From contig JAFRNW010000010.1 in the NCBI GenBank assembly GCA_017429985.1, positions 193,700 through 257,699 on the forward strand: 64,000 bases of DNA, in the 5' to 3' direction. The notes below the pieces were generated by a model that was not told where the DNA came from, searched no databases, and saw only the letters and a list, made by a program, of their open reading frames with translations. The DNA is from Clostridia bacterium (lineage in GTDB: Bacteria; Bacillota; Clostridia; Christensenellales; CAG-138). The translations under genes and the position numbers were made by a program. Shown here piece after piece: positions 23,338 to 38,001 of the stretch. How positions within the stretch are numbered: the stretch's first letter is position 1; each line of letters opens with the position of its first letter.

Positions 23338-23612
23338 ATCTCATTTGAAAAAGCGATGATGGAACTATGCTTCCGATCCGAAAGGTTCCAGAGAGCCGGC
23401 GGCCGCTGCGAGCCGGTACCGAAGGTGTGAAGCAGTCTCATTCCGGAGCCGTTTCCGTGAATTCATTCCGACAGTAACGGGAACCGCATGGCAGCGTTAC
23501 AGGCTAAGGGACTTGATGGAGTCCTGATTTGAGTGATCCGTTCATACGGATAAGCAGGGTGGTACCGCGAAGAGATTCGTCCCTGAGGCCATATTGGCTT
23601 CAGGGATTTTTT
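23338..23612 (+). promoter_or_regulatory. T-box leader 1 (tRNA-sensing riboswitch)
   Basis: This fills the gap between hppA and the LeuA-like gene. Seen in order are a GATGATGG specifier-loop strand, AGAGAGCC (23390-23397), a distal hairpin with GCTGCGAGCCGG, then AGTAAC after the specifier, a GTAACG/CGTTAC hairpin, the T-box proper AGGGTGGTACCGCG (23556-23569), and a terminator stem TCCCTGAGGCC/GGCTTCAGGGA with a T run. The triplet just before AGTA is GAC (23470-23472), nominally Asp. The antiterminator TGGT pairs with tRNAs ending A73-CCA, which argues against Asp, so the cognate tRNA is unresolved. Confidence 0.88.
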
Positions 23613-23629: not shown

Positions 23630-25051
23630 ATGAAAATGGACCGAGTATCGATTGCAGACATGACGATGAAACAGAGCCGGAGGGGCGTGGAATTCACGCT
23701 GAGTTTCCGCGAAAAGATCGAAATGGCGAAGCTGCTGGACAAGCTGGGGGTTTCCGTAATCGAGGTGACGCCCATCCTGCGTCCCAAGATCGACAGCCTG
23801 CTGATCAAATCGATCGGTTCGGCGGTCCGTGAGAGCACAGTCGCCGTCCCGGTCGGCATTGATCCGTCGCTTCCGGAGATCGCCTGGAAAGCGCTTGCGG
23901 AGGCAAGACATCCCCGTCTCCAGGTGGATGCGCCTGTCAGCGCCGTTCAGATGGAGTATATCGCCGGAAGGAAACCGGACGCCCTGATCGAAGAGATCGA
24001 CCGGCAGGTGCGCGCCTGCAGGGCATTGTGCCCGGATGTTGAGTTTATCGCCGGGGACGCGACGCGCGCAGAGCCCGCGTTTGTTCAGAAAGCCATCCGG
24101 ACCGCCATTGCCGCCGGTGCAAACGTGGTCACGGTGTGCGATGCGGAAGGGACCATGCTTCCGGATGAAATGAAAGCGTTTCTGAGCGGTCTGTATGACG
24201 CAATCGGAGAACTGAAAGACGTCTGCCTCGGCGTTTCCTGCAGCAGCGATTATGCGCTCGCGGATGCCTGCGCGGTCGCGGCAATCCAGGCGGGCGCAAG
24301 GGAGCTGAAGACGGCTGCCTATAATTTCACGGGGATCAGCCTGGAGCATACGGCGGATATCATTTTTGCGCGCGGCGAGCAGCTGGGTGTGGAGACAGGA
24401 ATCCGCATGACGCAGAAAAGGCGTCTGCTCGAGCAGATCGCGTGGATGTGCAGCACGGGCCGGAGCAAGAATTCCCCGTTTGATTCCGGCGTGCAGGAAG
24501 ACAGCGGCATGTATCTGACGGCGCACGACGAGATGTCGGCGGTCATGAAAGCGGTCAGCGGCCTTGGATACGATCTTTCGGAAGAGGACAGCATGCGCGT
24601 GTTTGAAGCGTTTTCCAGGATCGCCGCCAAAAAGGAAAAGGTGGGGGCGAAGGAACTGGACGCAATCGTTGCGTCCGCCGCCATGCAGGTGCCGGCCACT
24701 TATAAGATTAAAAGTTATGTGATCAACAACGGCAATATCATCAGCGCGACCGCCCACCTTCAGCTGGAAAAGGACGGAAGGGTCCTGGAGGGGATCGGAC
24801 TGGGCGACGGCCCGATCGACGCGTCCTTCCTCGCGATCGAGCAGATCGTCGGGCATCACTATGAGCTGGACGATTTTCAGATTCAGGCCATTACGGAAGG
24901 CCATGAGGCGATGGGCGAATCGGTCGTCAAACTCCGGAGCGGGGGGAGACTGTTCTCTGGAAGAGGCATTTCCACCGACATCATCGGCGCAAGCATCCGC
25001 GCGTACATCAACGCACTGAACAAGATCGTCTATGAAGGCGGAACCTACTGA
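23630..25051 (+). CDS. LeuA-like (HMGL/isopropylmalate-synthase family) protein lacking catalytic motifs
   Basis: 473 residues. Residues about 1-270 follow the HMGL TIM-barrel pattern and 350-470 match the LeuA allosteric dimerisation domain (NNGNIISATAHLQLEKDGR and GISTDIIGASIRAYINALNKI). The family N-terminal motif D-TLRDG-Q is replaced by ADMTMKQSRRG, and the metal-binding HxHND motif by SCSSD (203-207), so the usual Claisen-condensation chemistry looks lost. It may sense an amino acid or 2-oxoacid through its regulatory domain. It is controlled by T-box 1. The start could be 23630 or 23636, both after GGAGG. Confidence 0.78.
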   Translation: MKMDRVSIADMTMKQSRRGVEFTLSFREKIEMAKLLDKLGVSVIEVTPILRPKIDSLLIKSIGSAVRESTVAVPVGIDPSLPEIAWKALAEARHPRLQVDAPVSAVQMEYIAGRKPDALIEEIDRQVRACRALCPDVEFIAGDATRAEPAFVQKAIRTAIAAGANVVTVCDAEGTMLPDEMKAFLSGLYDAIGELKDVCLGVSCSSDYALADACAVAAIQAGARELKTAAYNFTGISLEHTADIIFARGEQLGVETGIRMTQKRRLLEQIAWMCSTGRSKNSPFDSGVQEDSGMYLTAHDEMSAVMKAVSGLGYDLSEEDSMRVFEAFSRIAAKKEKVGAKELDAIVASAAMQVPATYKIKSYVINNGNIISATAHLQLEKDGRVLEGIGLGDGPIDASFLAIEQIVGHHYELDDFQIQAITEGHEAMGESVVKLRSGGRLFSGRGISTDIIGASIRAYINALNKIVYEGGTY

Positions 25052-25071: not shown

Positions 25072-27588
25072 ATGAATCTGTCTTTTTCCAAAAGGGGATG
25101 GAACGGCACGACATGGGAGGAAGATGTCCTTGCCGCAGAGACCATGCAGTTCGGGGGTATCGAGCTTTACAACCCGCAGGACAGCGAGGAGATGACCGGA
25201 AGGAGCGGTCCGTTTCATAAGTATACGATCGCGTCCACAATCCGCGATCTTCACGCGAGAAAGCTTTCGATTCCCTGCATCGATACCGACTGCGATCTGA
25301 CGGGGGAGGATGCGTCCGGAAGGATCCTCCGGACACTGGAACTGGCGCATGACGCGCAGATCCCGTTTGTCGGCGTATGGGCTTCCTGCGAGTCCGAACC
25401 GAACGTCCGCGGATGTCTCGACTGCATCCTGCCGAAAGCAGCGGATTTGCGGGTGACCGTCCTGATCCGGACGACGGGGATCTATGCGGACACGGCGCGG
25501 CTCAGGAAGCTGATGGACGATTACGCCTGCGATGAACTCGGCGCGCTGTGGGTCATGCACGATCCCTACCGGGCGTGCGGCGAAAGCGCGGATACAACGA
25601 TCCGCAACCTCGGCGGCTATGTGAAGCATGTGCATCTGCAGGACTCGGACGACGACGGGGCATTTGACCTGATCGGGGAAGGCACGCTGCCGATCGCGGA
25701 CATGATGCGCGCGCTCGGTTCCATCGACTACGACGGGTTTATCTCTCTGGAATGGGAACCGGCCTGGATGCCGGAACTGGACGACCGGGAGATCATCTAT
25801 CCGCACTTTGTCAATTACATGCACCGGTTCGAGAACCCGCGCGGGAAGAAGAAGCGTCTGTATGAGAATCACGACAGAACGGGACAGTATGTCTGGAAGA
25901 AGGATACGCTGATTTCCGAGACGTTCCCGGAAGTGCTGGACCGTATGGTGGAGGAGTTTCCGGACCAGTATGCTTTCAAATATACGACCCTGGACTATAC
26001 GAGGACCTACGCGGAGTTCCGCGAGGATGTCGACAACTTTGCCCGTGCCCTGATATCCCTCGGCGTACGGCGCGGAAGCAAGGTGGCCATCTGGGCGACC
26101 AACGTTCCCGCGTGGTTCATCACGTTCTGGGCCGCGACCAAGATCGGAGCCATTCTCGTGACGGTCAACACGGGATACAAGCGTCATGAGGCGGATTATC
26201 TGCTCCGTCAGTCCGATACGCATACCCTTGTGATGATCGATTCCTGCCTGGATTCCGACTACAGGGCGATCATGCAGGAACTCTGCCCCGAACTTGCGCA
26301 CACGAAGCCCGGAGAGCCGCTGCACAGCCGCAGGCTCCCGTTCCTCCGCAACGTGATCACGGTGGGATTCCGGATGCCCGGATGCCTGACCTTTGAAGAA
26401 GCGATGGACCGCGCGCCGCTCGTCCCGAAGGAGGAAGTCGGGCGGATGGCGTCCAAAGTCCGGCCGGACGACGTCTGCAACATGCAGTACACCTCTGGCA
26501 CGACCGGATTCCCGAAGGGCGTCATGCTGACCCACTACAACGTCGTGAACGACGGGAAATGTATCGGAGACAGGATGGATCTTTCCACCGCGGACCGCAT
26601 GATGATTCAGGTTCCCATGTTCCACTGTTTCGGCATGGTGCTTTCCATGACGTCGAGCATGACACACGGCGCAACGCTCTGTCCGCTGCCGTATTTTTCT
26701 GCGAAAGTATCCCTCGCATGCATCAATCAGGAGCGGATCACCTGCTTCAACGGCGTGCCTACGATGTTCATTGCCATGTTCAACCATCCGGACTACCGGA
26801 AGACGGACTTCTCGCACATGCGGACGGGAATCATGGCGGGAAGCGGCTGCCCGCCCGAACTGATGCGGCGCGCCGCGCAGCCGGATGAGATGCACATGAC
26901 CGGCATCGTCAGCGTATACGGTCAGACCGAATCCGCGCCCGGAAGCACGATGAGCGCATGGGACGATCCGATCGAAGTCCGGTGCGACACGGTCGGCTAT
27001 GCGTTCCCGCATGTCGCCTGCAAGGTGATTGATCCGGAAACGGGCGAAGAGCTTCCCGCGGGGGTGAACGGGGAATTCTGTTCCCGCGGCTACAACACGA
27101 TGAAGGGATATTACAAGATGCCGGACGCCACGGCGTCCGCGGTCGATTCGGAAGGCTGGCTGCATTCGGGCGATCTCGCGTGCAGGGACGAGAACGGCAA
27201 TTACCGGATCACCGGCAGGCTGAAGGACATGATCATCCGCGGCGGGGAAAACATCTATCCCAAGGAGATCGAGGAATTCATCTATACGCATCCCGCCGTT
27301 CAGGACGTTCAGGTGATCGGCGTCCCGGACAGCAAATACGGGGAGGAGGCCATGGCCTGCATCATCCTGAAGGAGGGACAGCAGGTGACGAAGGAGGAGA
27401 TGCTCTCCTTTATCAGCGCGTCGCTGGCGCGGCATAAGGTCCCCAAGTACATCGATTTCACGGACGCGTTCCCGATGAACGCCGCAGGGAAGATTCTGAA
27501 GTACAAAATGCGGGAGGAAGCGGCAAAGCGTCTGGGCCTCGTAGGCGCCGGCGGCATCGATACCGCGAAGTCCAAAGAGGAGATCTGA
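25072..27588 (+). CDS. TIM-barrel (sugar-phosphate isomerase-like) / acyl-CoA ligase fusion
   Basis: 838 residues. Residues 1-265 resemble xylose-isomerase-like TIM barrels, with likely metal ligands in GGIELYNPQD, WVMHDPYRA, VKHVHLQDSDDDG and ISLEWEP. After a basic linker (NPRGKKKRLYENHDR) comes a full ANL ligase: phosphate loop YTSGTTGFPKGVMLTH (about 472), VYGQTESAPG, LHSGDLACRDENGNYRITGR, IIRGGENIYPKEIEEF and the catalytic Lys in NAAGKILKYKMRE. Resemblance is to FadD-type ligases. It follows the LeuA-like gene by 20 bp, so it shares T-box 1. The substrates of both halves are unknown. Confidence 0.82.
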   Translation: MNLSFSKRGWNGTTWEEDVLAAETMQFGGIELYNPQDSEEMTGRSGPFHKYTIASTIRDLHARKLSIPCIDTDCDLTGEDASGRILRTLELAHDAQIPFVGVWASCESEPNVRGCLDCILPKAADLRVTVLIRTTGIYADTARLRKLMDDYACDELGALWVMHDPYRACGESADTTIRNLGGYVKHVHLQDSDDDGAFDLIGEGTLPIADMMRALGSIDYDGFISLEWEPAWMPELDDREIIYPHFVNYMHRFENPRGKKKRLYENHDRTGQYVWKKDTLISETFPEVLDRMVEEFPDQYAFKYTTLDYTRTYAEFREDVDNFARALISLGVRRGSKVAIWATNVPAWFITFWAATKIGAILVTVNTGYKRHEADYLLRQSDTHTLVMIDSCLDSDYRAIMQELCPELAHTKPGEPLHSRRLPFLRNVITVGFRMPGCLTFEEAMDRAPLVPKEEVGRMASKVRPDDVCNMQYTSGTTGFPKGVMLTHYNVVNDGKCIGDRMDLSTADRMMIQVPMFHCFGMVLSMTSSMTHGATLCPLPYFSAKVSLACINQERITCFNGVPTMFIAMFNHPDYRKTDFSHMRTGIMAGSGCPPELMRRAAQPDEMHMTGIVSVYGQTESAPGSTMSAWDDPIEVRCDTVGYAFPHVACKVIDPETGEELPAGVNGEFCSRGYNTMKGYYKMPDATASAVDSEGWLHSGDLACRDENGNYRITGRLKDMIIRGGENIYPKEIEEFIYTHPAVQDVQVIGVPDSKYGEEAMACIILKEGQQVTKEEMLSFISASLARHKVPKYIDFTDAFPMNAAGKILKYKMREEAAKRLGLVGAGGIDTAKSKEEI

Positions 27589-27642: not shown

Positions 27643-27916
27643 TAATTGATTCTGAAAGGCTATGACGAAGACAGCGGAAGGAATTGCTCTTCAGAGAGCC
27701 GGCGGATGGTGCGAGCCGGCAGCATGCACTTCATGACTCATCACTTCCGAGCCGGAGGTCCGAACAGCAATATCAGTAGGCGCCTCCCGTACGCCCGCGT
27801 TAAGGGATAGGATTTGTCAGAATCCGAAGCGGCGGCAGACGATCTGCCGCAAGTTGAGTGGTACCACGGGAATACAATCTCGCCTCAGTCTTTATTTGAC
27901 TGAGGCGTATTTTTTT
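27643..27916 (+). promoter_or_regulatory. T-box leader 2, probable isoleucine specifier
   Basis: This is a complete T-box: AGAGAGCC (27693-27700), distal loop GGATGGTGCGAGCC, CCGAGC, then a helix ATTGCT/AGCAAT that abuts ATC (27772-27774) and AGTAGG. The T-box sequence is GAGTGGTACCACGGG, and the terminator stem CGCCTCAGTC/GACTGAGGCG is followed by seven T. ATC specifies tRNA-Ile, and TGGT fits the A73 discriminator of tRNA-Ile. Transcription should therefore read through when uncharged tRNA-Ile accumulates. Confidence 0.9.
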
Positions 27917-27929
27917 GGAGGAAAAACAG

Positions 27930-30200
27930 ATGGATCAGACAGCCAGCGGCCAGCTGTATGAAGTTGCACAGCGTATTCACGAAATGCGCGATATTTTCGG
28001 ATACAGCACTGCGAAAATGGCGGAGCTGACGGAGATTCCGGAAGCGCTCTATCTATCGTATGAAGCGGGGAAGGAGGATCTTCCGTTCACATTCATGCAT
28101 AAGTGCGCGCTCGCGTTCGGCGTGGAGATCACGGACCTGCTGGAAGGCCACAGCGCAAAGCTGTCCAACTATACGGTCACGCGGCGCGGGACGGGACTTG
28201 TGACGGCAAGCGAGGACGGGATCATGATTCAGAACATGGCGCCGATGTTCCGTCAGAAACTCGCGACGCCGTACTGGGTCACCTACGCGTATTCGGAGGA
28301 ACTGCAGCACAAGCCGATCCATACGACGACGCACAGCGGTCAGGAATTCGATCTGGTCGTGTCCGGAACGCTCCGGGTCCAGGTCGGAGCGCATACGGAA
28401 GTTCTGGAGGAAGGCGATTCGATCTTCTACAAGAGCTCCACGCCTCACGGCATGATTGCCATCGACGGGAAGGACTGCACCTTCCTTGCCATGATCATGG
28501 CGGGCTCGGAGGAGGAGCAGAAATTCGACGAGGTCGTTCCCGTCGTTACCGGGGAACCGAAGCAGCCGCTTCTCTGCGAATCGTTCGTCAATGCGCAGGA
28601 AGACGCTGCGGGAAGGCTTCAGGGGATCGAATTCCGGAATGCGGACAGCTTCAATTTCGCGTTCGACATTGTGGACGGGATCGCCCGGAAGGACCCGTAC
28701 AAGCTGGCCATGGTCCATGTTTCCAAGGACATGCAGGAGCGCAGGTTTACCTTCAAGGACATCAAGGACGCGTCCTCCCAGGCCGCGAACTATTTCACCT
28801 CGCTCGGAATCAAAAAAGGCGACCGTGTCATGCTGGTGCTGAAGAGGCATTATCAGTTCTGGTTTGCGATCCTTGCGCTGCATAAGATCGGCGCGATCGC
28901 GATCCCCGCAACGAACCAGCTGCAGGAGCATGATTTTGAATACCGGTTCACTTCCGCAGGCGTCAGCGCCATCATCTGCACGGCGGACGGCGACACCGCC
29001 CACCAGGCGGAACTCGGCCAGGAAGCCGCGGACGTCGCGCTGACCAGGATCATGGTCGGAGGAAGCCGGGAGGGATGGCATGACTTTGACGCGGAATATG
29101 TCCTGTTCAGCAGGAGATACAGCCGCACGGAAGATTCACCGTGCGGGGACGACCCCATGCTGATGTTCTTCACGTCTGGCACGACGGGCTATCCGAAGAT
29201 TGCGACGCACAGTTACAAATACGCGCTCGGACATTTTGTGACCGCAAAATACTGGCACCGGGTCGAACGGGAAGGACTCCATTTCACGATCTCCGAAACC
29301 GGATGGGGCAAGGCGCTCTGGGGCAAGCTCTACGGCCAGTGGATGTGCGAGGGAGCCGTATTCACCTATGACTTTGACGTGTTTGACGCGGAAAAGATCC
29401 TTCCGCTGTTCAAACGGTACAATATCACAACCTTCTGCGCACCGCCGACGATGTACAGGATGCTGATCAAGAAGGACCTGTCCCGGTATGATCTGAGCTC
29501 CATCCGTCACGCGACGACGGCGGGTGAGGCGCTGAACCCCGAAGTGTTCTATCAGTTCGAGAAGGCGACCGGTCTGCAGGTCGCGGAAGGATTCGGCCAG
29601 ACGGAGATGACGCTCGGCATCGCGAACCTCAGGGGAATGAAGATCAAGCCCGGATCCATGGGCAAGCCGGTCCCGGGTTACGGCATTGATCTGGTCGACC
29701 GGAACGGGGAGCCTGTCGAAGACGGCGTAACCGGGGAGATCGTGATCCGCTGCGGCAGGGACGACCACAGATGCGGCGTGTTCCTTGGTTATTACCGGGA
29801 CGAGGAGAAAACGGACGAAGCCTGGCGCTTCGGCATGTACCATTCCGGAGACCTCGCGTGGAGGGATGAGGACGGATACTACTGGTACGTCGGACGCGCG
29901 GACGATCTGATCAAGTCCTCCGGATACCGGATCGGACCCTTTGAGATCGAGAATACGATCATGGAGCTTCCGTACGTGCTGGAGTGCGGCGTATCCGCGG
30001 CCCCGGACGAAGTCCGCGGCCAGGTCGTCAAGGCGAGCATCGTGCTCGTGCCCGGAACGGAAGGCACCGAGGCGCTCAAAAAGGAGATCCAGGATTACGT
30101 CAAGGCGCACACCGCGCCGTACAAGTATCCGAGGATCGTCGTTTTCCGCAGGGAACTGCCCAAAACGATCAGCGGAAAGATTATCCGGAACCTGCTTTAA
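27930..30200 (+). CDS. HTH-cupin-acyl-CoA ligase fusion, copy A
   Basis: 756 residues from ATG 27930, after GGAGG. Residues about 5-65 are an XRE-type helix-turn-helix (RIHEMRDIFGYSTAKMAELT, YEAGKEDLPFTFMHKCALAF). Residues about 110-190 are a cupin (PIHTTTHSGQEFDLVVSG, LEEGDSIFYKSSTPHGMIAI). From about 255 it is a MACS-like AMP-forming ligase: FFTSGTTGYPKIATHSY (about 414), GFGQTEMTLGI, YHSGDLAWRDEDGYYWYVGR, IKSSGYRIGPFEIEN and the terminal TISGKIIRN lysine. It probably makes acyl-CoA from a short or branched acid. DNA binding or cupin ligand sensing is inferred. It is under T-box 2. Confidence 0.87.
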   Translation: MDQTASGQLYEVAQRIHEMRDIFGYSTAKMAELTEIPEALYLSYEAGKEDLPFTFMHKCALAFGVEITDLLEGHSAKLSNYTVTRRGTGLVTASEDGIMIQNMAPMFRQKLATPYWVTYAYSEELQHKPIHTTTHSGQEFDLVVSGTLRVQVGAHTEVLEEGDSIFYKSSTPHGMIAIDGKDCTFLAMIMAGSEEEQKFDEVVPVVTGEPKQPLLCESFVNAQEDAAGRLQGIEFRNADSFNFAFDIVDGIARKDPYKLAMVHVSKDMQERRFTFKDIKDASSQAANYFTSLGIKKGDRVMLVLKRHYQFWFAILALHKIGAIAIPATNQLQEHDFEYRFTSAGVSAIICTADGDTAHQAELGQEAADVALTRIMVGGSREGWHDFDAEYVLFSRRYSRTEDSPCGDDPMLMFFTSGTTGYPKIATHSYKYALGHFVTAKYWHRVEREGLHFTISETGWGKALWGKLYGQWMCEGAVFTYDFDVFDAEKILPLFKRYNITTFCAPPTMYRMLIKKDLSRYDLSSIRHATTAGEALNPEVFYQFEKATGLQVAEGFGQTEMTLGIANLRGMKIKPGSMGKPVPGYGIDLVDRNGEPVEDGVTGEIVIRCGRDDHRCGVFLGYYRDEEKTDEAWRFGMYHSGDLAWRDEDGYYWYVGRADDLIKSSGYRIGPFEIENTIMELPYVLECGVSAAPDEVRGQVVKASIVLVPGTEGTEALKKEIQDYVKAHTAPYKYPRIVVFRRELPKTISGKIIRNLL

Positions 30201-30242: not shown

Positions 30243-30525
30243 TATTAAAGGCGTCGAAGGAGAGGGTCCGACCCGGGATCCGCGTAAAGAGAGCCGGTGG
30301 ATGGTGCAAACCGGATGCGGATGGGACGGATTTGTAGCTCCGGAGCCGGGGAGAAGAAAGCGGTTTCCGCAAGTAGAACTCCTCCGCGTCAGCTGCGTCA
30401 GTGCTTAGGGTTTTTCAAAGAACCCGACGAGGGGCATGGATCGTGAGATCCCTGCAATTTGAGTGGTACCGCGGGTGATACATTCGCTCGTCTCAAGGAA
30501 TTCAATCTTTGGGACGGGCTTTTTT
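30243..30525 (+). promoter_or_regulatory. T-box leader 3
   Basis: AGAGAGCC (30288-30295), the distal loop GGATGGTGCAAACCGG, GGAGCCGG, the AAGTAG element (30371-30376), the T-box GAGTGGTACCGCGGG (30461-30475) and a terminator stem GCTCGTCTCAAG/CTTTGGGACGGGC plus six T are all present. The triplet before AGTAG is GCA (Ala); shifting by one gives CGC (Arg). I cannot choose from sequence alone. TGGT again requires a tRNA with A73. The leader differs in sequence from leader 2 outside the conserved elements. Confidence 0.88.
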
Positions 30526-30552: not shown

Positions 30553-32844
30553 ATGGGTCAGCAGATTACAGGACTGGATTACAAGATCCGCGAGATGGCG
30601 GGCCGTATCCACGAGCTTCGCGAGATTTCCGGCTTTACGCCCGCGCAGATGGCGCAGAATACGGGCGTCTCGGAGGAGGAGTACCTTCTCTGCGAACAGG
30701 GGGGAAGCGATCTGAACTTCGCATTCCTTTACCGGTGCGCACTTTCGTTCGGCGTAGACGTAACGGATCTGATCGAAGGCAGCAGCCCGAAACTGCGTTC
30801 CTATACGCTGACGCGCGCCGGAAACGGTCAGAAGATCGAGCAGGCGCATGAGATGATCTATTACAACATGGCCTCCGGATTCAAGAACAGGATCGCGGAT
30901 CCGCTGTATGTTGAGAACAAGTACTCCGACCGGGCGTTCCATTCGGACATCGAACTGACGACGCACGACGGCCAGGAGTGCGATCTCGTCATCAAGGGCA
31001 CGCTCAAGGTCCAGATCGGCGAGCACACGGAGACGCTGCACGAGGGCGACTGCATCTATTTCGACAGCTCGATCCCGCACGGCATGGTCGCGGCGGACGG
31101 GGCGGACTGCCTGTTCTACGCGATCGTTCTGAAGCATCAGGACGAGATCCCGCAGATCCCCGAGATGGTGGTCGCGGAAGGGGTCCGGCCGGCCGTAACG
31201 GAAAAGCCGGGCGAACGGATCGCGGACCGCTTCATCAGCACGCAGGAGAACGAGAAGGGACTGGTCACGTCGATCTCCTTCAAGGAGGAGAACACGTTCA
31301 ACTTCGCCTTTGACGTTCTGGATGCCCTGGGAAGGGAAAAGCCGGACCGGACGGCGCTCGTATACGCGTCCGAAAACGGGGACAGCAGGAAATTCTCCTT
31401 CAAGGACATGAAGGACGCCTCCTCCCAGACGGCGAACTATTTCACCTCGCTCGGGATCAAGCGCGGGGACCGCGTGATGCTCGTGCTGGGACATCATTAC
31501 CAGTTCTGGTTCTCCCTCCTTGCGCTGAACAAGATCGGCGCGATCGCGATCCCGGCGACGAACCAGCTGCTGCAGCATGACTTTTCCTACCGGTTTACTA
31601 CCGCGGGCGTCAGCGCGATCGTCTGCACCGCCAACGGAGACGCCGCGCATCAGGCGGAACTAGCCGAACAGGAGACGGGTCTTTCGCTGAAGAAGATCCT
31701 GGTCGGAGGACAGCGGGACGGCTGGCACGATTTCGACAGCGAGTACGGCCTGTTCAGCCGCAGGTATCTCAGGAGCGACGACGCCCCGTGCGGGACGGAC
31801 CCGATGCTGATGTTCTTCACGTCGGGAACGTCGGATTATCCGAAGGCGTGCCTGCACGATTACCGCTATCCGCTCGGACACTACATCACGGCGCGCTACT
31901 GGCACCGCGTGGACTCGGACGGGCTGCATCTGACGCTTTCCGACACCGGCTGGGCGAAGGCCCTCTGGGGAAAGCTCTACGGGCAGTGGCTCTGCGAAGC
32001 GGGCGTGTTCGTATACGACTATCAGCGGTTTGACGCGGAAAAGGTGCTGTCTTTGTTCCGAGAATACGGCATTACAAGTTTCTGCGCGCCGCCTACCATG
32101 TACCGGATGATGATCAAGCAGGATCTCTCAAGATTCGACCTCAGTTCCGTCCGGCACGCGAGCATCGCGGGCGAAGCGCTGAATCCGGAAGTGTTCCGGC
32201 AGTTTGAGAACGCCACGGGCCTCAAGATCATGGAGGGATTCGGACAGTCCGAATCCACGCTGATCATCGGGAACCTCGCGGGCGACATGCATAAGATCGG
32301 CTCCATGGGCCGTCCCGTCCCGCTGTACGACGTGCATCTGATCACGCCGGACGGATCGGAGGCGGTCACCGGCGAAACGGGCGAGATCTGCATCAACATC
32401 CAAAACGGCCTGCCGTGCGGACTGGCCAGGGAATACTACGGCAGTCCCGAGGTCACGGCCGCGACGTGGAAGGACGGCTATTATCATACGGGCGATCTGG
32501 CGTGGAAGGACGAGGACGGTTTCTTCTGGTACGTCGGACGCGCGGATGACGTGATCAAGTCCTCCGGATACCGCATCGGGCCGTTCGAGATCGAGAACGT
32601 GATCATGGAACTCCCGTACGTACTGGAATGCGGCGTATCCCCCGCACCGGACGAGGTGCGCGGGCAGATCGTGAAGGCGAGCATCGTGCTCGTGCCCGGA
32701 ACGGAAGGCACCGAAGCGCTCAAGAAGGAGATCCAGAATTACGTCAAGGCGAACACGGCGCCGTACAAGTATCCGAGGATCGTGGAATTCCGGAAAGAGC
32801 TTCCCAAGACGACGAGCGGGAAGATCATCCGGAGCAGACTGTAA
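30553..32844 (+). CDS. HTH-cupin-acyl-CoA ligase fusion, copy B
   Basis: 763 residues from ATG 30553, after GGAGG. The same three-part layout and strong similarity to copy A along its whole length mark it as a tandem duplicate. The HTH (RIHELREISGFTPAQMAQNT), the cupin (DIELTTHDGQECDLVIKG, LHEGDCIYFDSSIPHGMVAA) and the ligase (GFGQSESTLIIG, YHTGDLAWKDEDGFFWYVGR, TTSGKIIRS) are intact. One difference stands out: the phosphate loop reads FFTSGTSDYPKACLH (about 420), with Asp where the family has Gly. It is under T-box 3 and 12 bp before the P-loop ATPase gene, so T-box 3 may drive the oxidoreductase genes as well. Confidence 0.87.
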   Translation: MGQQITGLDYKIREMAGRIHELREISGFTPAQMAQNTGVSEEEYLLCEQGGSDLNFAFLYRCALSFGVDVTDLIEGSSPKLRSYTLTRAGNGQKIEQAHEMIYYNMASGFKNRIADPLYVENKYSDRAFHSDIELTTHDGQECDLVIKGTLKVQIGEHTETLHEGDCIYFDSSIPHGMVAADGADCLFYAIVLKHQDEIPQIPEMVVAEGVRPAVTEKPGERIADRFISTQENEKGLVTSISFKEENTFNFAFDVLDALGREKPDRTALVYASENGDSRKFSFKDMKDASSQTANYFTSLGIKRGDRVMLVLGHHYQFWFSLLALNKIGAIAIPATNQLLQHDFSYRFTTAGVSAIVCTANGDAAHQAELAEQETGLSLKKILVGGQRDGWHDFDSEYGLFSRRYLRSDDAPCGTDPMLMFFTSGTSDYPKACLHDYRYPLGHYITARYWHRVDSDGLHLTLSDTGWAKALWGKLYGQWLCEAGVFVYDYQRFDAEKVLSLFREYGITSFCAPPTMYRMMIKQDLSRFDLSSVRHASIAGEALNPEVFRQFENATGLKIMEGFGQSESTLIIGNLAGDMHKIGSMGRPVPLYDVHLITPDGSEAVTGETGEICINIQNGLPCGLAREYYGSPEVTAATWKDGYYHTGDLAWKDEDGFFWYVGRADDVIKSSGYRIGPFEIENVIMELPYVLECGVSPAPDEVRGQIVKASIVLVPGTEGTEALKKEIQNYVKANTAPYKYPRIVEFRKELPKTTSGKIIRSRL

Positions 32845-32856
32845 GCAGGGATCGGC

Positions 32857-33558
32857 ATGGAGACCAGAAGGCTCACGCTTTTCGCGGGACACTACGGAAG
32901 CGGGAAAACGAATATCGCGATCAATTACGCGCTGTATCTGAAGCGGGCGGGCTATCCCGTTGCGATCGCGGATCTGGATATCGTCAATCCGTACTACCGC
33001 ACGAAAGACAGCGAGCAGATGCTTTCGGAAAACGGGATCGAACTGATCGTTTCCCCGTACGCGAACTCCAACGTGGATCTTCCCTCGATGCCGAAGGAGA
33101 TCTACGGACTGGTCTGCGACCCGTCCCGGTACGGCGTTCTGGATATCGGCGGGGACGACCGCGGCGCGCTCGCGCTCGGACGCTACGCGGCGGACATCGT
33201 CTGGGAAAACAACTATGAAATGCTTCTGGTCATCAACAGGGCGAGACCTCTGACCAGAACGCCGGAGGATACGGTGGAAGTCCTGCGGGAAATGGAGCAG
33301 GCGGGCGGGATCCCGTTCACCGGCATCGTCAACAATACGAATCTCGGCCTCGATACCCGCGCGGAGGACGTCCTTTCAAGCCTTGCGTACGCGGACGCGG
33401 TGTCCGCTCTGACGGGGCTTCCGGTGAAGATGACCTGCGCGATGCGCTCGATCGTTCCGGAACTGAATGATAAGATCGGGAATCTGTTCCCGCTGGAGAT
33501 ACAGAAACTGTATTATATGCTCGATTCGGAGGTAAGGAATGGCAAAACTGACATTTAA
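32857..33558 (+). CDS. CooC/ParA-like P-loop ATPase linked to 2-oxoacid oxidoreductase
   Basis: 233 residues. A Walker A loop GHYGSGKTNIAINYA sits at the N-terminus, followed by VAIADLDIVNPYYRTKD and the Walker B-like YGVLDIGGDD, a pattern of SIMIBI-class (MinD/ParA/CooC-like) ATPases. Members of this class load metals or act on partner complexes; here it could help mature or activate the oxidoreductase, which is inference from position. Its last 20 bp overlap the ferredoxin gene in another frame, indicating tight translational coupling. Confidence 0.72.
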   Translation: METRRLTLFAGHYGSGKTNIAINYALYLKRAGYPVAIADLDIVNPYYRTKDSEQMLSENGIELIVSPYANSNVDLPSMPKEIYGLVCDPSRYGVLDIGGDDRGALALGRYAADIVWENNYEMLLVINRARPLTRTPEDTVEVLREMEQAGGIPFTGIVNNTNLGLDTRAEDVLSSLAYADAVSALTGLPVKMTCAMRSIVPELNDKIGNLFPLEIQKLYYMLDSEVRNGKTDI

Positions 33559-33745
33559 AGAGGAACTGTGCAAGGGCTGCGGTCTTTGCGTGAATGCCTG
33601 CCCGAAGGGCATTCTGGCGCTGGCGAAGAACCGCCTGAACGGAAAGGGACATGCGCCCGTGGAGCTGACGGATCCGGATGCGTGCATCGGATGCGCGAGC
33701 TGTGCGATCATGTGCCCGGACTGTGTGATCAAGGTCGAGCGCTGA
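33539..33745 (+). CDS. 2-oxoacid:ferredoxin oxidoreductase, ferredoxin (delta) subunit
   Basis: 68 residues with two [4Fe-4S] binding motifs, CKGCGLCVNACPKG and CIGCASCAIMCPDC. In four-subunit KOR/VOR enzymes this small subunit relays electrons between the thiamine centre and external ferredoxin. A GGAGGTAAGGA site precedes it within the end of the ATPase gene. The alpha subunit gene follows after 13 bp. Confidence 0.92.
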   Translation: MAKLTFKEELCKGCGLCVNACPKGILALAKNRLNGKGHAPVELTDPDACIGCASCAIMCPDCVIKVER

Positions 33746-33758
33746 AGGAGGAGGAATC

Positions 33759-34826
33759 ATGCAGGAAAAAGTTTTGATGAAAGGGAACGAGGCGATCGCA
33801 GAGGCCGCGATCCTGGCGGGATGCCGGCACTATTTCGGCTACCCGATCACGCCCCAGACGGAAGTCGCCGCCTATATGGCGAAAAAGATGCCGAAGATCG
33901 GCGGCACGTTCCTTCAGGCGGAAAGCGAGATCGCCGCGATCAATATGGTTTACGGCGCCGCGTCCACGGGAAAGCGGGCGATGACGTCGTCCTCCAGCCC
34001 GGGCATTGCGCTGAAATGCGAGGGCATCTCCTATCTCGCGGGATCGGACCTTCCGGCGCTGATCGTCAACGTCCAGCGCGGCGGTCCCGGCCTCGGCGGC
34101 ATCCAGCCGTCCCAGTCAGATTACTATCTGGCGACGAGAGGACCCGGACACGGTGATTTTCACGTGATCGTCCTGGCTCCCTCCAGCGTCCAGGAGATGG
34201 CGGACCTCACGGGCAAGGCGTTTGAACTGGCGGAAAAATACCGCATGCCGGCCATGCTGCTGGCGGACGGCACGATGGGCCAGATGATGGAACCGGTCGT
34301 GCTGCCGGACCCGGTCGAAACCGTCCCGGAAAAGACGTGGGCGGTCACGGGCACAGGATGCGCCAGAGAGCACAGGATCATCAACTCCCTGGATCTTTCC
34401 CCCGTCAATCTGGAGCGCCTGAACCTCGAACGCTTCAAGCGGTATGAAAAGGTCGAGGCGGAGGAGGCCATGTGGGAGTCCTTCCTGATGGAGGACGCGG
34501 AGATCTGTATCGTATCCTGCGGCATCACGGCGCGCGTTTCGAGAAACGCGATCGTCGCGGCAAGGGAAAAGGGGATCCGGGTCGGCATGATCCGTCCGAT
34601 CACGCTCTGGCCGTTCCCGAAGAAAGCGCTCCTGAACGCCGCGGACCAGGTACATGATTTCATCTGCGTCGAGCTGAACATGGGCCAGATGGCGGAGGAC
34701 GTGGAACTTGCCATCCGCTGCAGAAAGCCGGTCGCGCGCTGCAACCGGGTCGGCGGCATGATCCCGTCCCCGGACGAGGTGCTGGAAGCCATTTACAAAG
34801 CTGCCGGAAAGGAGGCGGGAAAATGA
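33759..34826 (+). CDS. 2-oxoacid:ferredoxin oxidoreductase alpha subunit
   Basis: 355 residues. The N-terminal [26 protein letters not shown] motif and [36 protein letters not shown] and [11 protein letters not shown] are hallmarks of the pyrimidine-binding domain of KorA/VorB subunits. Together with beta, gamma and delta it interconverts a 2-oxoacid plus CoA with acyl-CoA, CO2 and reduced ferredoxin. The family covers 2-oxoglutarate, 2-oxoisovalerate and indolepyruvate enzymes; the neighbouring branched-chain aminotransferase favours 2-oxoisovalerate-type substrates. It overlaps beta by 4 bp. Confidence 0.9.
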
Positions 34827-35572
34827 TCGTATTCGACAAGCCGAAATCTCTGACGGACGCGGTATTCCATTACTGCCCCGGATGCACCCACGGCATCGTA
34901 CACCGCCTCGTCGCGGAAAGCATCGACGAGCTGGGGATCGAGGGAAGGACGATCGGGATCGCGCCGGTCGGCTGTTCCGTTCTTGCATATAACTATTTTG
35001 CCTGCGATATGATCGAGGCGGCCCACGGGCGCGCCCCGGCGGTCGCGACGGGCGTCAAGCGCGCGCTGCCCGACCGTATCGTCTTCTCCTATCAGGGCGA
35101 CGGCGATCTTGCCTCCATCGGCATGTGCGAGACGGTAAGCACCGCCGCGCGCGGGGAAAACATCACGATCATCTTCATCAACAACGCCATCTACGGCATG
35201 ACCGGGGGGCAGATGGCGCCGACCTCCCTGATCGGGCAGGTCACCCAGACCTCCCCCTACGGAAGAGATCCCAAAACGCAGGGATATCCGATCCGGATCT
35301 GCGAGCTTCTCGCGACACTGGACGGGCCGGAGTATCTTGCCCGCGTCACGGTCAACAGCGTGCCGCATGTCCGACAGGCGAAGAAGGCGATCAAGAAGGC
35401 GTTTCAGAACCAGATCGAGGGAAAGGGCTTTTCCCTCGTGGAGGTCGTCAGCTCCTGCCCGACCAACTGGGGCGTCACGCCGCTTGAAGCCATGAAGTGG
35501 ATCGACGAGAAAATGATCCCGCAGTATCCGCTCGGCGTTTACCGGGACCGGAGCGAGGAGGCGAGCAGATGA
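34823..35572 (+). CDS. 2-oxoacid:ferredoxin oxidoreductase beta (thiamine-binding) subunit
   Basis: 249 residues. The thiamine diphosphate/Mg binding motif [12 protein letters not shown] ... [16 protein letters not shown] is present, as is an N-terminal [14 protein letters not shown] segment and [11 protein letters not shown], typical of KorB/VorA. It carries the catalytic cofactor. Start and stop overlap alpha and gamma respectively, so the subunits are translated together. Confidence 0.92.
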
Positions 35573-36108
35573 AGAACAACGAGATTATCATTGCCGGTTT
35601 CGGCGGACAGGGACTGCTCTTTTCCGGGAAAGTCCTCGCCTACGCGGGACTCCTTGAGGGAAGGGAACTCAGCTGGCTGCCTTCCTACGGACCGGAGATG
35701 CGCGGCGGCACGGCCAACTGCAACGTGATCCTGAGCGACAGGCCGGTCGGTTCGCCCATCGTGCAGCATCCGACCATCCTGATGGTCATGAACACCCCTT
35801 CCCTGGACAAATACGAGAGCACGGTCGTGCCTGGCGGCATGATCTTTGTGGATTCCTCCCTGATCGCGAGGAAGGTGCAGCGGCAGGACGTGACCGCCGT
35901 CTACGTGCCCGCCACCCAGATGGCCGCGGACATGAACATGACCGGGCTTGCGAACATGATCCTGCTCGGCGCGGTCATCGCGAAGACCGGATGCGTGAAC
36001 GAGGCGGGGCTTGCGGACGCGCTGCACAAGGTGATCCCCGCGAGGAAGGCGGACCTGTTCGATTCCAACATGGCCGCGATCCGCGCCGGGAAGGAGTACG
36101 TGTCATGA
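35569..36108 (+). CDS. 2-oxoacid:ferredoxin oxidoreductase gamma subunit
   Basis: 179 residues from ATG 35569, overlapping the beta stop. The motif [19 protein letters not shown] and [18 protein letters not shown] are diagnostic of the gamma subunit (POR_N-like Rossmann module) of KOR/VOR complexes. It completes the delta-alpha-beta-gamma set. Its stop overlaps the start of the carbon-nitrogen hydrolase gene. Confidence 0.92.
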
Positions 36109-36896
36109 GGATCAGCTGTATTCAGATGGATATGCAGCTGGGACAGCCTGATTTAAACTTCGCGCACGTCCGGGAGCTGATCCTGCAGGCTGTTGCCGAT
36201 GAACATCCCGACACGGTCGTTCTGCCGGAGACGTGGAACACGGGCTTTTTCCCGAAGGAGGATCTCGCGTCGCTCTGCGACCGGGACGGCGAACGGGTCA
36301 GGAAAGAAATCGGCGCGCTGGCGGCGGACTGTTCCGTCAACATCGTGGCGGGAAGCGTCGCCAACGAACGCGGCGGCAAAATCTACAACACCTGCCTTGT
36401 CTTCGACCGCTCCGGGGACTGCGTCGCGTCCTACGACAAGACGCATCTGTTCACGCCGATGGGGGAAGACCGGAACTTTGCCAAGGGAGACCATCTCTGC
36501 AGATTCCGTCTGGACGGCATTCCGTGCGGCGTGATCATCTGCTACGACGTGCGCTTTCCGGAACTGATCCGGAGCATGTCCGTCCCGGGCATGGACCTGA
36601 TGTTCATGGTTTCCCAGTGGCCGGACGTCAGGACGGCGCATCTCAGAACGCTGACCGCCGCGAGGGCCATCGAGAACCAGATGTTCGTCGCGTGCTGCAA
36701 TTCCTGCGGAACGGCGGGAGAGACCCGCTACGGCGGGAACTCGTCCATCCTGGATCCCTGGGGCGCCTGCCTCGCTTCGGCCGGCGCACAGGAGGAGATC
36801 CTGACAGCCGACTGCGATTTTTCCGTCGTGGACGGGATCCGAAATTCGATCAACGTGTTTGCGGACCGCAGACCGGAACTATATAATTGTAATTGA
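36105..36896 (+). CDS. Carbon-nitrogen hydrolase, omega-amidase-like
   Basis: 263 residues of the nitrilase superfamily. The catalytic Glu (VLPETWNTGFF), Lys (YDKTHLFTPMGED) and Cys (GVIICYDVRFPEL) are all visible. The closest pattern is omega-amidase, which hydrolyses 2-oxoglutaramate or 2-oxosuccinamate to the dicarboxylic 2-oxoacid and ammonia. That would pull a glutamine-linked transamination forward, fitting its place between the oxidoreductase and the aminotransferase. Coupling to the gamma subunit is by a 4-bp overlap. Confidence 0.82.
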   Translation: MRISCIQMDMQLGQPDLNFAHVRELILQAVADEHPDTVVLPETWNTGFFPKEDLASLCDRDGERVRKEIGALAADCSVNIVAGSVANERGGKIYNTCLVFDRSGDCVASYDKTHLFTPMGEDRNFAKGDHLCRFRLDGIPCGVIICYDVRFPELIRSMSVPGMDLMFMVSQWPDVRTAHLRTLTAARAIENQMFVACCNSCGTAGETRYGGNSSILDPWGACLASAGAQEEILTADCDFSVVDGIRNSINVFADRRPELYNCN

Positions 36897-36918: not shown

Positions 36919-38001
36919 ATGGAGTACACATTTCCCGTAACCAGAACGACGCATCCGCGTCCGCGTCCGGAAGATGAAACGAAGCTCGGCTTCGCGCGCT
37001 ATTTCACAGACCACATGTTCATGATGGAATGGGACGAGGGACAGGGGTGGCATGACGGCCGCATCGTGCCGCACGAGCCCTTCCTGATCGAGCCCGCGTC
37101 CTGCGTTCTCCACTACGCCCAGATGATGTTCGAAGGCATGAAGGCGTACCGGACGCCGGACGGCGGCATCCAGCTGTTCCGGCCGGACATGAACATCAAG
37201 CGCATGGCGAGGACCAACGAGCGCATGTGCATTCCGGAGCTGCCCGGGGATCTCTTCCTCGCTGCGGTCAAGGCGCTGATCCATGAGGACATCGACTGGG
37301 TGCCTTCCGCTCCCGGTACCGCACTGTACATCCGCCCGTTCATTTTCGGCGACGAGGTCTCGTTCTCCGTCCTTCCGGCGAAGCATTACCGCTTCATGAT
37401 CATTCTGAGCCCGACCGGCTCGTACTACGCGGCCAACGACGGCGGTCTCTCCACCACGAGGATCTACGTGCAGGACCAGTACATCCGCGCAGCCCGCGGC
37501 GGCACGGGATACGCCAAGGTCGGCGGCAACTACGGCGGCGGCATGCGCGCGTCCATGGACGCCCTGAAGTACGACTGCAAGGACGTTCTGTGGCTCGACG
37601 CCCAGGAGCATAAATACGTGGAGGAGATCGGAACGTCCAACGCGTTCTTCAAGATCGGGGACGAAGTGATTACGGCGCCCCTTGACTCCGGCACGATCCT
37701 TCCGGGCATCACCCGCGATTCCGTCATCAATCTTCTGAAGAAGTGGGGCATGAAGATCTCCGAGCGCAAGCTTTCCATCGATGAGATCGTCGAAGCCTCG
37801 AAGAACGGCACGCTGGAGGAGATCTTCGCGAGCGGCACCGCAGCGGTCATCTCCCCGATCGGCTGGCTGAACTACAACGGCGAGGACGTTCAGGTGGCGG
37901 ACGGCAAGGTCGGCCTGGTCGCGCAGAAACTGTACGACACGCTCTACGGCATGCAGACCGGCACGGTGGAAGACTTCATGGGATGGACCTACCGCATCTG
38001 A
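36919..38001 (+). CDS. ilvE: Branched-chain amino acid aminotransferase
   Basis: 360 residues from ATG 36919, preceded by AAGAAGGAG. It is a fold-type IV PLP enzyme of the longer (type II) BCAT group: YAQMMFEGMKAYRTPDG, YIRPFIFG, Lys200 in YAKVGGNYGGGM as Schiff-base residue, EEIGTSNAFF and SGTAAVISPIG. It interconverts Val, Leu and Ile with their 2-oxoacids using glutamate. As last gene of the block it would turn 2-oxoacids formed by the ferredoxin enzyme into amino acids, or the reverse. Confidence 0.93.
   Translation: MEYTFPVTRTTHPRPRPEDETKLGFARYFTDHMFMMEWDEGQGWHDGRIVPHEPFLIEPASCVLHYAQMMFEGMKAYRTPDGGIQLFRPDMNIKRMARTNERMCIPELPGDLFLAAVKALIHEDIDWVPSAPGTALYIRPFIFGDEVSFSVLPAKHYRFMIILSPTGSYYAANDGGLSTTRIYVQDQYIRAARGGTGYAKVGGNYGGGMRASMDALKYDCKDVLWLDAQEHKYVEEIGTSNAFFKIGDEVITAPLDSGTILPGITRDSVINLLKKWGMKISERKLSIDEIVEASKNGTLEEIFASGTAAVISPIGWLNYNGEDVQVADGKVGLVAQKLYDTLYGMQTGTVEDFMGWTYRI

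Follow-up and report, generated by a model that had tools for sequence, protein, structure and literature searches.

A catalytically dead LeuA-fold protein as the proposed leucine-sensing subunit of an acyl-CoA synthetase in a Clostridia bacterium

The product of positions 23630-25051 of the window (the whole stretch of 64,000 nucleotides analysed here), for which the name LeuX is used, is a LeuA-fold protein that, according to profiles, alignment and structural model, combines a dead catalytic domain with a conserved LeuA_dimer regulatory domain. It is read here, with a probability of roughly 0.6, as a pseudoenzyme that senses leucine and, as a subunit, thereby regulates the neighbouring synthetase TIM-ACS1, leucine shutting off the synthesis of isovaleryl-CoA. 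In the proposed mechanism, scarcity of leucine leads to uncharged tRNA-Leu, which would open a T-box and allow LeuX and TIM-ACS1 to be made; TIM-ACS1 would then convert isovalerate into isovaleryl-CoA, the Vor complex would carboxylate this product reductively to 4-methyl-2-oxopentanoate, and IlvE would aminate the latter to leucine. When leucine is plentiful, its binding to the regulatory domain of LeuX, presumably in complex with the synthetase, would turn the enzyme off, an effect predicted to be inhibition rather than activation. In this way, the feedback module of LeuA would have been relocated to a new committed step, in a route that does without isopropylmalate. All features of the window given below lie on the forward (+) strand.

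LeuX, its regulatory domain and its partner

The LeuX reading frame is intact, encodes 473 amino acids and is preceded by a GGAGG ribosome-binding site closely 5' of the start. The domain order is that of LeuA, a barrel (Pfam HMGL-like, 1.3e-25) followed by LeuA_dimer (1.6e-31), and the protein scores well under all curated cut-offs for LeuA, CimA and homocitrate synthase, the top score being 279 bits against a cut-off of 532. In an AlphaFold2 model built from 73 homologues (mean pLDDT 90.7), the barrel superimposes on that of Listeria LeuA (3ewb; Z 40, 1.4 A over 267 residues), and the model also aligns along the full-length LeuA of M. tuberculosis, with a different placement of the domains. 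A pseudogene or an assembly error was ruled out by the intact frame, the 97 homologues and a dN/dS of about 0.1.

Relatives were gathered first from 150 related genomes, and 80 more came from about 85,000 species genomes; the 569 relatives of the wide search may include true LeuA and are not a measure of family size. Most carriers are Oscillospiraceae or belong to other Bacillota. The remainder are metagenome bins under the labels Actinomycetota, Bacteroidota, Synergistota and Abditibacteriota, although such labels can be wrong. In each of the 4656 LeuX pairs, conservation is higher in the regulatory domain than in the barrel, the reverse of what is found in 91% of LeuA pairs, and in close pairs dN/dS amounts to about 0.12 for the N-domain barrel and about 0.04 for the regulatory domain, i.e., both are under purifying selection. 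Thus, constraint on the catalytic part has been relaxed, while the sensing part is held by selection. Conserved positions cluster in the ligand-loop motifs GDGPIDA, TEGxEAxG and STDI. Moreover, substitutions specific to the family occur in the regulatory loop (D to E in 90 of 97 members, E to G in 85), so that the effector may differ from leucine.

LeuX is preceded by a T-box leader (23347-23587; RF00230, 113.3 bits) with the leucine specifier CUC (23437-23439) and an intrinsic terminator in which a T run follows the hairpin (23579-23607). A T-box motif was found directly upstream of LeuX at 62 loci, and the 61 readable specifiers are all leucine codons that show synonymous drift among CUC, CUG, CUA and CUU. 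For 34 of 96 LeuX genes, many of them inside longer operons, the motif is absent within 500 bases upstream, which counts against the main reading. Two statements of the first-pass annotation, that LeuX is under T-box control and that its C-terminal LeuA regulatory domain is well preserved, were accordingly borne out, the T-box being real (113 bits, with CUC specifier and terminator) and the domain being more conserved than the barrel.

Directly 3' of LeuX lies TIM-ACS1 (25072-27588), a single polypeptide in which a xylose-isomerase-like TIM barrel (AP_endonuc_2) is fused to an acyl-CoA synthetase (ACS1), and which is proposed to act as isovaleryl-CoA synthetase. Such a fusion follows LeuX directly in 94 of the 94 loci with enough sequence to be tested, usually with an overlap of a few bases. 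Conservation is highest in its synthetase domain, where the YTSGTTGFPKG, GRLKDMIIRGGENIYP and C-terminal lysine motifs are all retained. Among the loci examined, no LeuX was found lacking the fusion, and five related genomes have a fusion that is not accompanied by LeuX, a distribution that fits LeuX as an added regulator; other genomes encode unfused neighbouring ACS and TIM proteins. Fusions occurring alone do without LeuX, which counts against the main reading. A metal-site Glu of the TIM barrel is retained in only 17 of 83 LeuX-partnered fusions, with Lys in 61, and is kept in the fusions without LeuX. The activity of the TIM domain as an isomerase in LeuX loci is therefore doubtful. The likely order of events is an ACS/TIM pair, its fusion, and then the arrival of LeuX, accompanied by erosion of the TIM metal site. 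At L141, L144, L146, L147, L148 and L149, an acyl-CoA synthetase and a TIM barrel whose metal site is intact lie side by side as stand-alone proteins. The neighbours of these pairs gave no functional clue; in L147, the pair sits between the clpX and lon genes.

The obligate pairing could also mean that LeuX structurally supports or activates TIM-ACS1 as a subunit, in the manner of a scaffold or chaperone, and that its regulatory domain serves mainly for dimerisation and senses no leucine. LeuA_dimer is indeed also a dimerisation domain, and the decay of the TIM metal site beside LeuX, but not in its absence, suggests that both barrels turned structural together. Nevertheless, conservation falls on the ligand-loop motifs and the T-box reads leucine codons, two features that suit amino acid sensing, and a scaffold is considered unlikely.

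Loss of the catalytic and metal-binding residues

In an alignment of 97 LeuX family members with 10 true LeuA, residues 9-19 (ADMTMKQSRRG) and 203-207 (SCSSD) of LeuX sit exactly in the columns of the LeuA motifs, which are thus occupied by altered residues. Displacement of the motifs is ruled out, and HxHND was found nowhere else in the window protein (P0001). Both histidines of HxHND are replaced across the 97 aligned members, and in DTTLRDG the Arg is changed to Lys in 67 and the Asp to Gln in 62. The first Asp of DTTLRDG, retained in 96 of 97, is the sole LeuA metal ligand left, since both His and the Asn are lost. In NGIGERAGN, not only the Asn has disappeared but also the E-R-A residues, which correspond to a gap in 97 of 97 members; the histidines of the AHESGIHQHG subdomain motif are likewise absent in all 97, and GKHSG is mostly lost. 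LeuX unites lost catalytic residues, a kept effector domain and an obligate enzyme partner, which is the make-up of an allosteric pseudoenzyme subunit, similar in function to HisZ.

The first-pass annotation had read both LeuX motifs correctly and had concluded that the catalytic and metal-binding residues of LeuA were gone; this holds, with the exception of the one remaining Asp, and the loss of the NGIGERAGN Asn, E-R-A, the subdomain histidines and most of GKHSG goes further than described there. Whether the motifs were missing or displaced, a point it had left to an alignment, is settled in favour of the former, and its suggestion that they might mark a clade agrees with a tree in which the LeuX family and true LeuA fall on opposite sides of one branch (SH-aLRT 100). 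As far as sequence can tell, LeuX is also inactive as an isopropylmalate synthase, as had been proposed.

The barrel has acquired new conserved residues at its mouth, namely Q107, E109, K115 and K227, which may constitute an interface or a ligand site; that they form a new active site seems less likely. If LeuX instead catalysed a new reaction of this pathway in a remodelled barrel pocket, it would draw on these residues, the first three being (near-)invariant after strand beta-4 and K227 lying on beta-8, together with K/R at position 14 and the retained D10, D143, R146 and D171. However, the HxH strand varies strongly, the mouth at beta-8 shows no conservation, constraint on the N-domain is weaker than on the regulatory domain, and the pathway shows no obvious gap that such an enzyme could fill, all of which renders this reading rather improbable. 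A more distant variant is that the rebuilt barrel binds or transforms an acyl intermediate. Hence, of the two roles envisaged in the first-pass annotation, a sensor or a new chemistry, the sensor remains the best reading and the new chemistry has so far found no support, no alternative set of catalytic residues being apparent in LeuX.

Specificity code and predicted reductive carboxylation

TIM-ACS1 is followed by two HTH-cupin-MbcS acyl-CoA synthetases with XRE-type HTH domains, each behind a T-box leader of its own. The first leader (27653-27890; RF00230, 95.7 bits) carries the isoleucine specifier AUC, ATC in homologues, and precedes a proposed 2-methylbutyrate enzyme (27930-30200) whose closest solved structure is MacsMa (3etc, 608 bits). 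The second leader (30245-30498; RF00230, 84 bits, E 7.4e-19) carries the valine specifier GUA, with GTC or GTA in homologues, and precedes a proposed isobutyrate enzyme (30553-32844); it scores under the Rfam gathering score and is, hence, hidden by the Rfam threshold. The GTG start assigned to an open reading frame listed from 30463 is false and overlaps the antiterminator of this leader. Both synthetases remain below the MbcS cut-off (NF047394; 428 and 417 bits against 850) and are relatives rather than equivalogs. Their cupin domains may be the isoleucine and valine sensors that correspond to LeuX.

Further downstream are a ParA-like P-loop ATPase (32857-33558), conserved between MbcS and Vor in most loci, and a complete set of 2-oxoisovalerate:ferredoxin oxidoreductase subunits, consisting of a VorD-like ferredoxin subunit with two CxxCxxC...CP motifs (33539-33745), VorB (33759-34826; NF005507, 527 bits against a cut-off of 399), the beta subunit VorA (34823-35572; TIGR02177, 1.2e-33) and the gamma subunit VorG (35569-36108; NF006323, 4.4e-33). 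These are followed by the branched-chain aminotransferase IlvE (36919-38001; NF009897, 442 bits against a cut-off of 307). A nitrilase-family amidase (36105-36896) lies between VorG and IlvE, and one also occurs near the locus in several relatives.

The classical route is missing from the window genome (98% complete), in which no second LeuA, IlvC, IlvD or LeuC/aconitase-family protein was detected. Another LeuA was ruled out by a PF00682 search, which matched, apart from LeuX, just a protein resembling oxaloacetate decarboxylase and an intact DRE-TIM enzyme lacking LeuA_dimer (C13:111214-112032; L002 1111-2487, G000 C13), which we take to be probably a Re-citrate synthase. Among related genomes, IlvC occurs in 1 of 19 with LeuX against 24 of 36 with LeuA only, figures that are uncorrected for relatedness, and Vor is present in 24 of 24 genomes tested; one related genome (G051) has LeuX plus true LeuA, IlvC and IlvD, a case that counts against the main reading. 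The absence of aconitase-family proteins holds for the window genome and was rejected as a general rule, because an aconitase-sized member is present in many genomes with LeuX.

With synthetases, Vor and aminotransferase present and the classical genes absent, the locus has the gene content expected where isovalerate, 2-methylbutyrate and isobutyrate are reductively carboxylated to make branched-chain amino acids. Rumen bacteria are established to build isovalerate into leucine (Allison 1962, 1966, as cited in PMC7356843). Characterised MbcS uses 2-methylbutyrate and isobutyrate and isovalerate only poorly (PMC10026030), and MacsMa prefers 2-methylbutyrate (PMC10455477). Given these preferences, a third synthetase is to be expected for the leucine precursor, and the leucine-controlled TIM-ACS1 is best read as the isovalerate enzyme. 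Since T-boxes respond to starvation, the route would run toward the amino acids, from acid to acyl-CoA, reductive carboxylation and transamination. The partner of LeuX, the leucine identity of its T-box, the isoleucine and valine T-boxes on two synthetases and this pathway all lie beyond the first-pass annotation.

A catabolic locus, in which LeuX would sense leucine to switch the fermentation of branched-chain amino acids, would be compatible with Vor and IlvE, both reversible in principle, but it is very improbable: T-boxes switch genes on when amino acids are scarce, ATP is consumed by AMP-forming synthetases, the three specificities match three biosynthetic T-boxes, and the genome has no classical biosynthesis genes. 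That LeuX works as a normal 2-isopropylmalate synthase whose motifs are merely unusual is scarcely credible, despite the LeuA fold and the leucine T-box, in view of the loss of two His and one Asn metal ligands, the mostly replaced Arg-Asp of DTTLRDG, the deleted subdomain motif, and a genome devoid of LeuC, IlvC and IlvD.

Significance and comparison with known systems

The formation of leucine from isovalerate by rumen and gut anaerobes has been known since the 1960s, and the locus adds candidate genes, a specificity code formed by leucine, isoleucine and valine T-boxes on three synthetases, and a proposed feedback mechanism. If the sensor reading is true, LeuX would represent a clear case of an enzyme that lost catalysis and survived as the sensor of its replacement. 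Moreover, labelling proteins like LeuX as isopropylmalate synthase on similarity would mislead reconstructions of amino acid auxotrophy and isoacid requirements in gut and rumen bacteria. We give even odds to a broader view, namely a system widespread among gut bacteria that assigns to every branched-chain acid a T-box-controlled synthetase with its own sensor, the dead LeuA serving isovaleryl-CoA synthetase as a detachable sensor of leucine. No description of the LeuX family or its locus was found in open-access papers, which is limited evidence.

LeuX resembles the LeuA proteins of M. tuberculosis (3fig/1sr9) and L. monocytogenes (3ewb) in its barrel, linker and LeuA_dimer domain and in the kept motifs of the regulatory loop. 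Unlike these, it has lost the metal site and catalytic residues, its linker is shortened, it has an obligate acyl-CoA-synthetase partner, and it is found in genomes mostly without IlvC. HisZ, the regulatory subunit of ATP phosphoribosyltransferase, is a catalytically dead paralogue of the HisRS family that serves feedback. It may be regarded, by analogy, as a functional precedent for the role proposed for LeuX, although family and pathway are unrelated. The two neighbouring synthetases are relatives of MbcS and MacsMa, and their isoleucine and valine T-boxes match the known substrates, whereas the leucine branch employs another ligase family (PRK12583-like), a TIM fusion, and LeuX in place of the HTH-cupin domain. 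The isovalerate carboxylation of Allison, as cited in PMC7356843, follows the same chemistry as predicted here (acid, acyl-CoA, reductive carboxylation and transamination); compared with that pathway, the present system comprises a genetic locus, T-boxes for each amino acid and a dedicated, predicted feedback subunit. Its parts are of known kinds, while their combination is new, together with the reuse of a dead LeuA as a presumed detachable sensor.
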